Of a DNA stretch of 34,697 nt, positions 2,696 to 32,863 are shown in pieces. The notes below the pieces were generated by a model. That model worked only from the letters and a program-made list of their open reading frames with translations, did not search any database and was not told where the DNA came from. This DNA comes from a virus. The stretch lies in IMG/VR virus record IMGVR_UViG_3300045741_000098, positions 1-34,697 of that record; one strand, written 5' to 3'. Position 1 is the first letter of the stretch. Every line of letters begins with the position of its first letter. Both the position numbers and the translations under genes were made by a program.

Positions 2696-4438
2696 ATGGA
2701 TAATTTCACTCCGACAACACCGGAACAGGATGCAAAGATAAACTCAAAAGCTGATGATAGTGTTTTACTTGATCAGATTGTCCAGGATAAGAACTCCGCT
2801 ATTGAATATCAGAAGCCCCGGCAAGGGCCTTGGACTGAAAACTATAACCTATCGCGTGATCGCGTGGTAAATAATCCACTTGTCCAAAGGCATCCGGTGA
2901 ATGTTCCGCTTATGAAAGAACAGGAACTTGCTTGGTTAGGAAAGATAGATGATATGCCCTCAATATATTTTGATTGCATATCCGATGATCCGGAACTGGC
3001 CCAGAAAAAGGAACTTCTTATCAATGAGTATTGGTCAAAGGAATCAGACCGGTTGAATATACCGATACTTGATTTTGTCGGAAAGCGCGTTGTATTCCAT
3101 ACCGGACGAACTCACGCCAAAATTGGCCTTGTGAATGGTAAATTTATGCTATGGATAACTGATGCCTTTGATGTTGTTGTAGATCCAAAGACTAATCCGA
3201 TGGATATTCAGACCGCTATGCATATTCATAATCTGCATATCTACAAGACACTCAAAGAGATATTAGCCGATCCAACAATCTCAAAAGAAGCAAAGGGCCG
3301 GCTTAATAGCCATCTGGCTACAAATAAGGGTTTATTCAGTACATCCGATACCGTTGATCAGATTAAGGCTAAACTGGAACGCCTGAAGGCATTGAATATC
3401 ACTAACTACGATAAGATTATCGGAACTGATCTTATTATTGACTGTACCGAAACCGTCCGAAAGATCTGGAATCCAAAGACAAACAAGTATGAATTGTTTG
3501 TTATACTTCAGGCATACGATACCGTTATCCTAAAAAAGAGAACAATGCAGGAGGCGTTGGGAATAGACCGCTTTAACTATGCTTCTTGGTGCTATAATCC
3601 CGATACTGAATTATATTGGGAACTTGGGCCGGGAGATATTGCCCGCAATCCAAACAAGATGAGCAACTTGTTCCTCTCTCAATTCTTTGAGAATAGATCT
3701 TTGGCTAACAATCAGATGAATTTCTTTGACGATACCTTTGAGGGTTTTCATCCGGAGGCATTTACGGCCCGACAATTTGGATTTTATGGTGTACCCGGAA
3801 AGCCATCCGATATAATTATGCCTATCAAAGTTGAACCTTTTGACAATGCGATACAGGCAGATCTTGAATATATCCGAGCAATGGCTTCGCGTGGTATGAT
3901 CACAACTGATATAGACAAAGGAATGTCCTCTCCCGGTAATCAAACAAAAGGAGAAATTGAGATATTGGCATCGCGATCCCAGAGGCAAGTAAACAATCTT
4001 CAGAAATTCTATAATCGTTTCTGGCAGGAGATAGCGAACTTCTGGCTTGATCTGGCGATAAATAAGGCTACAATTCTTGATAAAACTCTCCTTACAAAAC
4101 GTGGTAACAATGGGCAATTATATAGCCATAATCTAAAGGTAAAGGATATTAAAAACGATAAAGGCTATGTCGTCCGGGCCGTTCAGATGGCCCAGAAGGA
4201 TGAACAGACAAGAGATACCATCAACAAACTCTCCGTTCTCCGCAATCAATTTATGGATAATCCGGTAGCAATGAATATAATCAAAGAGAAGATGCTTACA
4301 GAATTGAACATATTTACCCCGGACGAGATCAGACAGATAAAGGCAACACTCAAAAATGCTCCGGCAATGCCAATAAATCAAACGCTAAGTACACTAGGCC
4401 AAGCAAACGCGATGGCCGGTGGTAATCCTAATGCCTAA
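2696..4438 (+). CDS. Portal protein (head-tail connector)
   Basis: 580 aa, the usual size for a podovirus portal, which forms the dodecameric ring at one capsid vertex through which DNA is packed and ejected. Family assignment rests on position (between terminase and scaffold/capsid), length and pattern. An N-terminal helical region is followed by a mixed wing region (about 130-260, with DAFDVVVDPKTNPMDIQ), a core about 270-400, and a region rich in Gln/Arg helices (GNQTKGEIEILASRSQRQVN) typical of the portal stem, then a helical C-terminus. It is probably of the P22-like rather than the HK97-like portal group. The ATG lies one base after the previous stop, with no Shine-Dalgarno sequence. 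Confidence 0.8.
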   Translation: MDNFTPTTPEQDAKINSKADDSVLLDQIVQDKNSAIEYQKPRQGPWTENYNLSRDRVVNNPLVQRHPVNVPLMKEQELAWLGKIDDMPSIYFDCISDDPELAQKKELLINEYWSKESDRLNIPILDFVGKRVVFHTGRTHAKIGLVNGKFMLWITDAFDVVVDPKTNPMDIQTAMHIHNLHIYKTLKEILADPTISKEAKGRLNSHLATNKGLFSTSDTVDQIKAKLERLKALNITNYDKIIGTDLIIDCTETVRKIWNPKTNKYELFVILQAYDTVILKKRTMQEALGIDRFNYASWCYNPDTELYWELGPGDIARNPNKMSNLFLSQFFENRSLANNQMNFFDDTFEGFHPEAFTARQFGFYGVPGKPSDIIMPIKVEPFDNAIQADLEYIRAMASRGMITTDIDKGMSSPGNQTKGEIEILASRSQRQVNNLQKFYNRFWQEIANFWLDLAINKATILDKTLLTKRGNNGQLYSHNLKVKDIKNDKGYVVRAVQMAQKDEQTRDTINKLSVLRNQFMDNPVAMNIIKEKMLTELNIFTPDEIRQIKATLKNAPAMPINQTLSTLGQANAMAGGNPNA

Positions 4439-28058: not shown

Positions 28059-28337
28059 ATGACCGAAAGAAAAGACTTAACACCGGAGCAGAGAATATTT
28101 TTACCCCAGATATTACCGATCTCAATTTATCTGGCAAACATAAAACTATTCTCGCCGGATGATGCAATTGAGATAGTCCAGAAGGCGTACGAATTGAGCC
28201 GGATATCCTACCGGATCTTAACTCCCAAGATGGCCCGGAAGCTGATGGATTACTGCAATCTCTGGGATATGTGGGAGATCTACACCGCAGATGAGCAGAA
28301 AGAGATCAAGAATTTAGCCAATTCAAGCCACGATTAG
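28059..28337 (+). CDS. Small helical protein after the exonuclease
   Basis: 92 aa, helical, family not recognised. Segments such as LPISIYLANIKLFSPDDAIEI and ILTPKMARKLMDYCNLWDM are amphipathic. It follows the exonuclease by four bases and is the last gene before the 650-base structured region. A recombination or host-takeover accessory is possible from context only. Confidence 0.55.
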   Translation: MTERKDLTPEQRIFLPQILPISIYLANIKLFSPDDAIEIVQKAYELSRISYRILTPKMARKLMDYCNLWDMWEIYTADEQKEIKNLANSSHD

Positions 28338-28372
28338 TTATCAACATTTCATTTTTGTTCTTTTATAGAATG

Positions 28373-28381
28373 TGGTATAGT
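28373..28381 (+). promoter_or_regulatory. Extended -10 promoter for a probable small RNA
   Basis: TGG followed by TATAGT (28376-28381). The preceding bases TTATAGAATGTGG nearly repeat the block before the promoter at 32778 (TTATAAAATTGTGG), so this looks like a phage promoter type. Predicted start is about 28388. Confidence 0.5.
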
Positions 28382-28387
28382 GTGTAG

Positions 28388-28500
28388 GTATGTGGAGATT
28401 AAATCTCCGGGCGTTATTAGCAGACGATACTTGCAAAACCTTTTGGAAGTATTGTCATAAGCCCTAAAAAGCTTATGCTAATACGCCCAAAGGGTTTTTT
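28388..28500 (+). ncRNA. Probable structured small RNA (three-way junction)
   Basis: From the promoter the sequence first gives a hairpin (28394-28408), then a closing stem GGGCGTTATTAGCA (28409-28422) with TGCTAATACGCCC (28476-28488) with one bulge. Inside it are two hairpins, 28423-28432 with 28447-28456 (ten pairs, one G-T) and ATAAGC/GCTTAT (28457-28462, 28471-28476). Six T at 28495-28500 end it. There is no long reading frame inside. The promoter, compact fold and T-run support an independent RNA of about 110 bases. I do not match it to a known class; it is not a tRNA (no T-loop). Confidence 0.55.
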
Positions 28501-28504
28501 CTTC

Positions 28505-28545
28505 GGCAGGGTTCGCAATGCCCACGTTTCCCGAAAGGGTTTGCC
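28505..28545 (+). other. Small branched hairpin set
   Basis: GGCA (28505-28508) pairs with TGCC (28542-28545), enclosing GGG/CCC (28509-28511, 28521-28523) and CCC-GAAA-GGG (28530-28539), the latter with a GNRA tetraloop. The stems are short, so this could be chance. Confidence 0.3.
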
Positions 28546-28593
28546 AGTAATAGACGTTCAGCCATTGCCCCATTGACACCTATACTGAATGAG

Positions 28594-28699
28594 AAAAGTT
28601 GAGAGTTGATTATCTGGTGCGGGGGGTTAGGAATAAGTATATTTTTCCTGAAAGATATACTTATCCCCCCTCATCAGATAATCAATTTTCTCAATTTTT
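28594..28699. repeat. 106-base imperfect inverted repeat
   Basis: Four stacked segments pair: 28594-28604 with 28689-28699 (11, one G-T), 28606-28619 with 28672-28685 (14, one G-T), GGGGGG at 28621-28626 with CCCCCC at 28665-28670, and ATAAGTATAT (28633-28642) with ATATACTTAT (28655-28664). The tip loop is 12 bases. About 41 pairs in all, with a T-run at the 3' end. It can act as a bidirectional terminator, a cruciform or a replication-related site; the sequence does not choose. Confidence 0.6.
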
Positions 28700-28844
28700 C
28701 TTAATATGATACTTCCTATGATCCGGACGAGATCCCGGAGGAAGGAAAGACATTCAGGCAGGAGGAGATGGGCGAGCTATTTACATACGTACCACATTCT
28801 CCCCGGCTTATATCTGGGTAAGGGAATTATTGAAAATTGTATAT
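28700..28844. other. Intergenic stretch without a supported gene
   Basis: 145 bases between two inverted repeats. A frame without an early start runs 28705-28821 and reads SYDPDEIPEEGKTFRQEEMG, which has coding-like composition and may be the remnant of a gene. A different frame from ATG 28705-region codes a basic peptide. Neither is convincing. An AT-rich TATATT lies at 28840-28845. Confidence 0.3.
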
Positions 28845-28979
28845 TTTTAGCGGGGTAGTTCTTATGTTACCACCTATAAAAAGGCAAGGTTTACCCTCCT
28901 ATTTTTTCACTATCCGCTCCCCTGTTTCACGGATAGATCTCACGGTCAGACGGCCAATCCCGCGCCGTCCCCGCTAAAA
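28845..28979 (+). ncRNA. Possible structured RNA or leader closed by an 11-bp stem
   Basis: TTTTAGCGGGG (28845-28855) is perfectly complementary to CCCCGCTAAAA (28969-28979), 113 bases away. Between them CTATCCG pairs with CGGATAG and GACGG with CCGTC, giving a multibranch shape. It ends ten bases before the gene at 28989, so it may be its leader or an independent RNA. A promoter placed to transcribe the whole 5' arm is not clear. Confidence 0.4.
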
Positions 28980-28988
28980 GTACATAAT

Positions 28989-29405
28989 ATGGAAATACCA
29001 TCTTGTAAAAATAAAAAGTTCGGCCATAACTTCATAGGCGGAGTATGTCTTAACGGATGTGGTCAATCTCAAGTAAATACCTCCGGACCTAAAATTGATC
29101 CGGTAGGTGTGGATGTTTGGCAGAAGTATGCCCGGATAGTCTTTGAAAGAACTCCTACCACTAACGCCAGATCATACTTCAATGAAATTGTTGATCCCTA
29201 TATGAAGTATATCGCCTGGGATGATTCAGACGGAAACCTATTCAGATCTCATCAGGGTAAAGTCTATATGGCTATCCGGAATTACTGGAATAAGTACCAC
29301 CAATTCAAGACCGTTCAATTCCTAGAATGGGTAAAGAAAAAGAATTGCCTGCATCCTATGGCGGTTGTATCTGCATTTCTAGAAACAAAATCCTATGGAC
29401 GATAA
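28989..29405 (+). CDS. Protein with N-terminal Cys/His zinc-like motif
   Basis: 138 aa. The N-terminus has Cys6, His14, Cys20 and Cys24 (CKNKKFGHNFIGGVCLNGCG), a likely zinc knuckle. The rest is helical and aromatic (YFNEIVDPYMKYIAWDDSDG, YMAIRNYWNKYHQFKTVQFL). Family not recognised. It lies between ERF/exonuclease and NinB-like genes, so a DNA recombination or replication role is a reasonable guess. It may be controlled by the structured leader upstream. Confidence 0.6.
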   Translation: MEIPSCKNKKFGHNFIGGVCLNGCGQSQVNTSGPKIDPVGVDVWQKYARIVFERTPTTNARSYFNEIVDPYMKYIAWDDSDGNLFRSHQGKVYMAIRNYWNKYHQFKTVQFLEWVKKKNCLHPMAVVSAFLETKSYGR

Positions 29406-32735: not shown

Positions 32736-32774
32736 TCCGGAGTTGATAGCAATATGGCTTGACTTATAAAATTG

Positions 32775-32783
32775 TGGTATAAT
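32775..32783 (+). promoter_or_regulatory. Extended -10 promoter for the leader peptide
   Basis: TGG plus TATAAT (32778-32783), six bases before ATG 32790. The TTGACT at 32759 stands only 13 bases before it, too close for a standard -35, so the extended -10 probably carries the activity. Confidence 0.55.
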
Positions 32784-32789
32784 TAGGAT

Positions 32790-32849
32790 ATGCGCAAGAC
32801 AAATCAAAAAATAAGAGTTTTGAACCGGCGAATATCCAACATTAAGTAG
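32790..32849 (+). CDS. 19-aa leader peptide overlapping a terminator
   Basis: MRKTNQKIRVLNRRISNIK, leaderless start behind the promoter at 32778. The terminator's 5' arm (32823-32831) lies within the codons and the stop (32847-32849) falls just before the 3' arm. A ribosome moving to the stop would cover the 5' arm and prevent the terminator from forming, which is how attenuators of this type work. It is rich in Lys, Arg and Asn. Translation is inferred. Confidence 0.45.
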   Translation: MRKTNQKIRVLNRRISNIK

Positions 32850-32863
32850 GTCGCCGGTTTTTT
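32823..32863 (+). terminator. Terminator/attenuator before the HExxH gene
   Basis: AACCGGCGA (32823-32831) pairs perfectly with TCGCCGGTT (32851-32859) and is followed by T through 32863. It lies only about 40 bases after its own promoter, so it stops early transcripts unless they are released; read-through would reach the packaging operon. Confidence 0.75.

Follow-up and report, generated by a model that had tools for sequence, protein, structure and literature searches.

The window analyzed here is the whole of IMG/VR virus record IMGVR_UViG_3300045741_000098, a stretch of 34,697 bases. It includes a 651-base gap that holds a structured RNA of ~107 nt (positions 28394-28500, plus strand) and is flanked by a 92-amino-acid (aa) gene on the 5' side and a 138-aa gene on the 3' side. 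ERF and YqaJ recombination genes precede the 92-aa gene, and a NinB/Orf homolog follows the 138-aa gene. The gene at 28059-28337 ends 56 nt before the RNA, while the next gene downstream starts at 28989. Similarity searches of phages and plasmids with the DNA returned no match, nor did a protein search in phages with window positions 2696-4435. No open reading frame (ORF) of at least 50 aa overlaps the RNA; a 25-codon frame that begins with ATG at 28390 is present in the window and absent in L003, the nearest relative.

The RNA has an extended -10 promoter of its own (TGTGGTATAGT) and a T6 end, both of which a preliminary description of this DNA had pointed out. No good -35 element was seen for this promoter. 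The same description noted a similar promoter near position 32778. That copy is real (TGTGGTATAAT at 32773-32783), but the three near-matches found, compared with 1.53 expected, are not a significant excess. Positions 28386-28503 fold with a computed energy of -45.6 kcal/mol, compared with a mean of -23.8 (SD, 3.36) for dinucleotide shuffles (z = -6.49), and none of 200 shuffles was equally stable. Together with the lack of an overlapping ORF of at least 50 aa, this bears out the claim of a structured RNA of about 110 bases without a reading frame. The computed fold has a separate 5' hairpin (P0), a closing stem (a with a'), and two inner hairpins (b and d), which together form a three-way junction (Table 1). 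A closing stem with two inner hairpins had been anticipated, but the fold is not simply nested as was then thought. Loop CCTTTTGG in hairpin b is complementary to CCAAAGGG in the tail (28487-28494), and a pseudoknot scan of the window found that this pairing crosses the nested stems.

Table 1. Features of the RNA locus in the window
Feature	Position	Strand	Basis
Degenerate copy GTTATCAACA of a DnaA-box-like motif (TTATCC[AC]CA)	28337-28346	+	Motif upstream of several relatives
Extended -10 promoter TGTGGTATAGT	28371-28381	+	Pattern match
P0, 5' hairpin adjoining the closing stem	28394-28408	+	Fold; 4 base pairs varied yet paired in 18/18 members (arms chosen by hand)
a, 5' strand of the closing stem	28409-28421	+	Fold; a1-a5 paired in 18/18, each in 2-4 pair types (arms chosen by hand)
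Hairpin b, whose loop carries c	28423-28456 (b, 28423-28432; b', 28447-28456)	+	Fold; covariation (arms chosen by hand)
c, CCTTTT plus two variable nt, pairs with c'	28439-28446	+	t1 and t2 in 18/18 each, t3 in 12/18; pseudoknot scan
Hairpin d, in both folds, tip of the putative terminator rod	28457-28476	+	Fold; kept in the 16/18 members where placeable; fold B drawings
a', 3' strand of the closing stem; c also pairs with its last two bases	28477-28488	+	Fold; member pairing table; fold B drawings
c' (AAAGGG) plus T6, putative terminator foot and U tract	28489-28500 (T6, 28495-28500)	+	Sequence; pseudoknot scan
Structured noncoding stretch	28505-28988	+	z of -7.0 in the window and -3.1 in L003; conserved in L003

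The first relative, L003, lies on a 62-kb contig that was reached through the 138-aa neighbor protein, and its gap aligns with that of the window over the full length. The closing stem of L003 has other letters that are still paired. Its loop AACCTTTTGG and tail CCAAAGGGTT are unaltered and complementary to each other, a pairing that no nested fold can represent. Scanning viral contigs for the loop, gap, and tail yielded seven loci, and by eye all seven had the same architecture. With the GG/CC part dropped, a second scan found 65 stretches, 14 of which were taken as members by eye. A third scan, for CCCTTT (the C-G form of a wobble pair), found 77 stretches and one clear member, L170. In a scan for GGGTTCGCAANGCCCACG, only L008 was real; L007, L009, and L010 were rejected as unrelated coding matches.

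The resulting set consists of 18 members of one architecture, namely the window and 17 relatives in viral contigs (L003, L011-L016, L040, L045, L053, L061, L069, L074, L078, L097, L099, and L170). L011 and L013 are closely related, and both are counted; the doubtful L077, two copies of the window (L001 and L002), and L008, which belongs to the phage of L003, are left out. The 18 members share the order P0-a-b[c]b'-d-a'-AAAGGG-T5/6, with d placed in 16. Two of them, L069 and L053, occur on opposite strands of a single contig (IMGVR_UViG_3300033571_006685), ~7.7 kb apart.

Because 6.6% of shuffles passed a lax descriptor of this architecture, we replaced it with a strict one. The strict test required a closing stem of at least five pairs, at least three of them G-C, that ends exactly at AAAGGG. 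It also required at least four pairs in hairpin b around the loop, a P0 of at least four pairs adjoining the closing stem, and both variable loop-tail pairs. It was passed by 15 of 52 distinct viral cores in the set from the second scan (window included), compared with 24 of 5200 shuffles (0.46%). From the CCCTTT set, 4 of 59 distinct cores passed: L170, along with L121, L152, and L159, which we read as a second kind of terminator RNA described below. A scan for AAAAGG yielded no member of the junction kind; 1 of its 85 distinct cores passed (L227) and was also read as the second kind. Among 1188 cellular genomes of three phyla, there were 19 pattern matches with 17 testable cores, none of which passed. 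A scan of cellular contigs returned 23 contigs with 22 distinct cores; the only one to pass (L019; shuffle rate, 2.1%) is regarded as chance. Thus, among the tested sets, clear members are exclusively viral. All scans share one search core, so variants with a different core would be missed, including any in cells.

MAFFT failed to align the stems, and their arms were parsed by hand and then checked by script. The P0, a, b, and d stems show two to six pair types per position, with 4 to 12 members altered on both sides. The compensatory changes that the preliminary description had named as a check are therefore plentiful. Since the arms were chosen to pair, a shuffle test of these four stems is biased, and the unbiased part of the covariation evidence consists of the strict descriptor and two loop-tail pairs, t1 and t2. 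These join the two bases after CCYTTT to the two before AAAGGG, at the end of a'. They form in 18 of 18 members, including all 10 that were found without requiring them (L040, L045, L053, L061, L069, L074, L078, L097, L099, and L170). The third pair, t3, does not stand out from shuffled columns; its 12 of 18 was equaled or exceeded in 72 of 1000 shuffles. The a' bases that t1 and t2 use also pair with a1 and a2 in every member. Since the same bases keep two partners, the RNA has two mutually exclusive structures, and comparison of the members shows both sets of predicted pairings to be conserved by compensatory change. In the MAFFT alignment of 17 members, the invariant columns are AACCTTTT and AAAGGGTTTTT only, most of which the scans had demanded.

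With the tail barred from pairing, the best computed fold in most members is the three-way junction of a:a', b:b', and d (fold A); in L012, L061, and L170, the computed fold A is unlike the drawn junction. When c:c' pairing was forced, all members folded as a rod (fold B). One side of this rod comprises an A-rich stretch, CCYTTT, t1-t2, and b'; it pairs with a side made of a', AAAGGG, and the U's, and hairpin d forms the tip. The modeled rod has the shape of an intrinsic terminator. The complementarity of b' to a', which only the rod uses, amounts to 4 to 8 pairs in 18 of 18 members, and none of 400 random re-pairings of members reached its mean energy. Computed without regard to pseudoknots and kinetics, the energy of fold B minus that of fold A ranges from -13.8 to +7.2 kcal/mol around a median of -3.7 and lies within a few kcal/mol of zero in most members. 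The junction is clearly favored only in the window (+7.2 kcal/mol) and in L003 (+6.0 kcal/mol), and for this reason the stop fold may form poorly in these two.

Promoter spacing fixes the start of a transcript at a set distance after the -10 box. In 14 of 18 members, a -10 box with at least four of six matches precedes P0 by 5 to 8 nt, compared with 8.9% at random positions; the four exceptions include the window, whose box is 12 nt upstream of P0. We infer that in most members transcription starts on the first base of P0 or close to it, which would leave no space for a leader ORF before stem a. Farther upstream, the DnaA-box-like motif occurs, exact or as TTATGCACA, within 130 nt in 7 of 18 members, compared with 0.32 expected; the exact motif is missing in 11, the window among them.

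Neighboring genes vary by locus and include ERF, YqaJ, and NinB together; an endopeptidase with ERF; a methyltransferase; a ParB-like gene; and NinB. A protein read from its sequence as lytic-transglycosylase-like recurs in nine loci and an upstream protein of ~100 aa in four. Judged by eye from ORF lists, the next gene is codirectional in 12 of 16 loci, is opposite in L069 (a 354-aa frame downstream of the RNA), and is ambiguous in L013, L045, and L078; the contigs of L015 and L074 end too soon to be counted. Codirectional genes are the norm in phages, so this count is weak evidence. At L170, a GTG frame for what reads as a secreted CAP-like protein begins 1 nt past the T6, and AAAGGG sits where a ribosome-binding site would be expected. 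At L012, an ATG frame with what reads as a membrane-like stretch follows the T run.

The structured noncoding stretch between the RNA and the next gene of the window is possibly a long leader or a second RNA. RNAalifold scored it at -89.0, compared with -36.9 (SD, 3.8) for shuffled columns. Pairs changed on both sides numbered 20, compared with a shuffle mean of 10.4 and a maximum of 23; because 20 falls within the shuffled range, covariation in this stretch is unproven. It contains an inverted repeat of 35 nt (28601-28635/28656-28690; 80% complementary) and ends in a terminal helix directly before the next start codon. Downstream structure is not common to all members (z of +0.9 to -7.0). Three loci, L014:4000-4425 (-), L078:5397-5885 (+), and L011:11590-12000 (+), share a different downstream block of ~100 nt that is 95-97% identical, and their RNAs of the present family are far more diverged than this block. 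An HNH-endonuclease gene lies between the RNA and the block in L011.

We propose, with a probability of about one-half, that the window RNA is the start of a phage transcript and acts as a phage-specific leader switch that is bistable between terminator and antiterminator. A shape that is kept in unrelated phages while its letters change, and that can form either a junction or a stop signal, suggests a built-in RNA switch that is seemingly uncatalogued. The first ~107 nt of the transcript would carry the switch. As the polymerase leaves the promoter, P0 and the junction of fold A would form first. The emerging tail, AAAGGG, would then gain a toehold on hairpin b at its CCTTTT loop, and strand exchange would separate a from a' and b from b'. 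The resulting rod, in which c and b' pair with a' and c' and d forms the tip, would end in the U tract and stop transcription. Read-through into codirectional early genes would be allowed by any factor that holds fold A, be it the speed of the polymerase, another RNA, or a protein of phage or host origin. We infer the order of events, the termination, the controlling signal, and the cis target. No controlling signal can be named, because no effector-binding sequence is conserved. The proposal is supported by the common segment order, the pass rate in the strict test, t1 and t2 in 18 of 18 members, the b':a' complementarity in all 18, the similar energies of the two folds, the -10 box in 14 of 18, and, weakly, the codirectional next gene in 12 of 16 loci, with the GTG frame close behind the T6 in L170. 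Against it stand the opposite orientation of the next gene in L069 and the preference for fold A in the window and L003. The preliminary description had suggested a phage regulatory RNA, which fits because clear members were confined to viral contigs among the classified scans, but it did not propose a leader role or include the terminator helix that competes with the junction.

The main rival to the leader switch, with which it could coexist, is a stable small RNA that acts in trans. The rod would serve only for release, and the free RNA would refold to the junction, be locked by the loop-tail pseudoknot, and act on host or phage RNAs or proteins. We consider this a serious possibility, although the odds are against it. 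A sigma-70-like promoter of its own and a probable start at the base of P0 in most members would give an RNA structured at both ends, and it would finish in a T5/6 run. Members also adjoin differing genes, one contig carries two on opposite strands, and the window prefers the junction by 7.2 kcal/mol. However, the sole conserved accessible sequence is CCYTTT, itself paired in the rod or the pseudoknot. There is no excess complementarity to the downstream stretch of the same locus (a comparison with one target that ignored internal structure), and a small RNA alone has no need for the b':a' pairing. The b':a' complementarity, which serves the rod and not a pseudoknot, also weighs against a permanent loop-tail pairing. 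The RNA would then be rigid, with an architectural or decoy role, much as the large phage RNAs that have no known function, and perhaps the 5' domain of a longer RNA that reaches 28988. The c:c' pairing, in crossing a:a' and b:b', would make a plausible loop-tail helix, and the stretch up to 28988 is structured and conserved in L003. Yet the T run immediately 3' of c' suits termination, and downstream structure differs among members across the z range given above, leaving this reading unlikely.

Two other accounts fare worse. An RNA that lies 56 nt after the gene at 28059-28337 and ends in a T run could be an ordinary intrinsic terminator of that gene, with some chance structure. We judge this very improbable given the pass rate of 15 of 52 cores in the strict test against 0.46% of shuffles, covariation in stems for which a terminator has no use, and the fixed spacing between -10 box and P0 in 14 of 18 members. 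Still less credit goes to an element that works as DNA, such as part of a replication origin. The DnaA-box-like motif upstream of 7 of 18 members (0.32 expected) and the long noncoding stretch with its 35-nt inverted repeat would fit such an element. The overlap between two RNA pairings and the orientation of promoter and T run are features of RNA, though, and the exact motif is missing in 11 of 18 members, the window among them.

In RNAs of the second kind, a 5' hairpin loop of ~6-9 nt is the exact complement of the tip of an intrinsic terminator lying downstream, as in loop-loop kissing. Such RNAs were observed in viral contigs (L114, L133, L135, L136, L153, L177, L193, L220, L233, L257, and L166 and kin), often preceded by a TAnnTTTG promoter, which we take to be Bacteroidetes-like. 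Of 45 cores tested, L114, L133, L135, and L233 had complementarity that exceeded 200 of 200 shuffles. The window itself holds other candidates. At 32773-32863 (+), a strong promoter (TTGACT, TGTGGTATAAT) is followed by a stretch of ~80 nt that ends in a terminator, AACCGGCG...CGCCGGTTTTTT, whose ATATCC loop complements GGATAT at the 5' end; this is possibly a second small RNA. At 26529-26440 (-), a promoter-like TTGATA/TATTAT containing TTATCCCC has a 13-pair terminator ~20 nt on and may give a very short minus-strand transcript. More speculatively, and with considerable doubt, leader RNAs with an intrinsic terminator at their core might form a large, as yet uncatalogued class in phages, with a 5' element that captures both arms or, by kissing, the tip. 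The window RNA would then be a self-contained switch that times early genes, with the choice between stopping and continuing made by the loop-tail toehold rather than by a ligand.

If the leader switch is real, an RNA regulator is common to phages from unrelated contigs and preserves its shape even though its sequence changes with almost no constraint, which is why similarity searches would miss it. It would be a compact natural case of toehold-driven strand exchange at a terminator that reporters could test, and it would open a way to study how early genes are controlled in phages with unknown hosts.

At gathering cutoffs, Rfam 15 gave no match in the whole window or in seven related loci (67.8 kb), and ARAGORN found no tRNA or tmRNA gene in either, in agreement with the initial impression that the RNA does not look like tRNA, tmRNA, or a known ribozyme. 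With permissive cutoffs, all Rfam matches in 28330-29000 scored far below the gathering level, and the other permissive searches near the RNA were likewise subthreshold. The MAFFT alignment of 17 members contained no conserved ligand-binding core of the riboswitch type. A conserved leader ORF was also not found in the 17 members tested, whose 5'-end frames (0-83 aa) have no common position. Tandem pseudoknot repeats of type III toxin-antitoxin systems are absent: a scan of the window gave one clear copy and one unlike candidate, and none of the 20 direct-repeat families listed for the window is a short tandem repeat family. Complementarity to the RNA's own leader, of the P4 CI/c4 type, was not in excess of shuffles in 17 loci (best z, -2.0 in L078; internal structure ignored).

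The phi29 packaging RNA is a short phage RNA with a three-way junction, and we know of no terminator switch in it. By general description, the present RNA resembles it in the junction and differs in matching no Rfam model at cutoff. We count OOP among the phage-encoded small RNAs. In passages of a review of such RNAs, c4, AgvB, DicF, and others are, like the RNA described here, short and phage encoded, some with a terminator-like end (PMC12197685). The word pseudoknot was not found in that review. In contrast to the small RNAs listed there, the members here represent one architecture across diverse phages. Passages of another source describe ROOL and GOLLD as structured noncoding phage RNAs with pseudoknots and unknown function, often near tRNA islands, with many GOLLD RNAs exceeding 800 nt (PMC12286853). 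The present RNA is likewise a structured noncoding phage RNA with a putative pseudoknot but is far smaller, with no tRNA and no Rfam match. We found no prior description in the literature on phage small RNAs, structured or ornate phage RNAs, and pseudoknot terminators, as covered by titles, abstract openings, and passages of PMC12197685, PMC8040213, and PMC12286853, with preprints and many subscription papers outside this scope.

We file the RNA as a new family of the attenuator and phage small RNA kind and not as something categorically new. Attenuators of the trp type and riboswitch platforms have segments with exclusive terminator and antiterminator pairing. The RNA likewise has two exclusive conserved folds, one of them a predicted terminator with a U tract, although this fold is 6-7 kcal/mol weaker in the window and L003. 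As in trp-type attenuators, four segments form two exclusive pairings near the transcript start, one of which would be a terminator followed by U's. Unlike attenuators and riboswitches, the RNA has no conserved effector-binding domain or leader peptide. It further departs from the trp type in having as its putative antiterminator a three-way junction, which draws on both arms of the terminator, and in that a loop-tail toehold could start the exchange.
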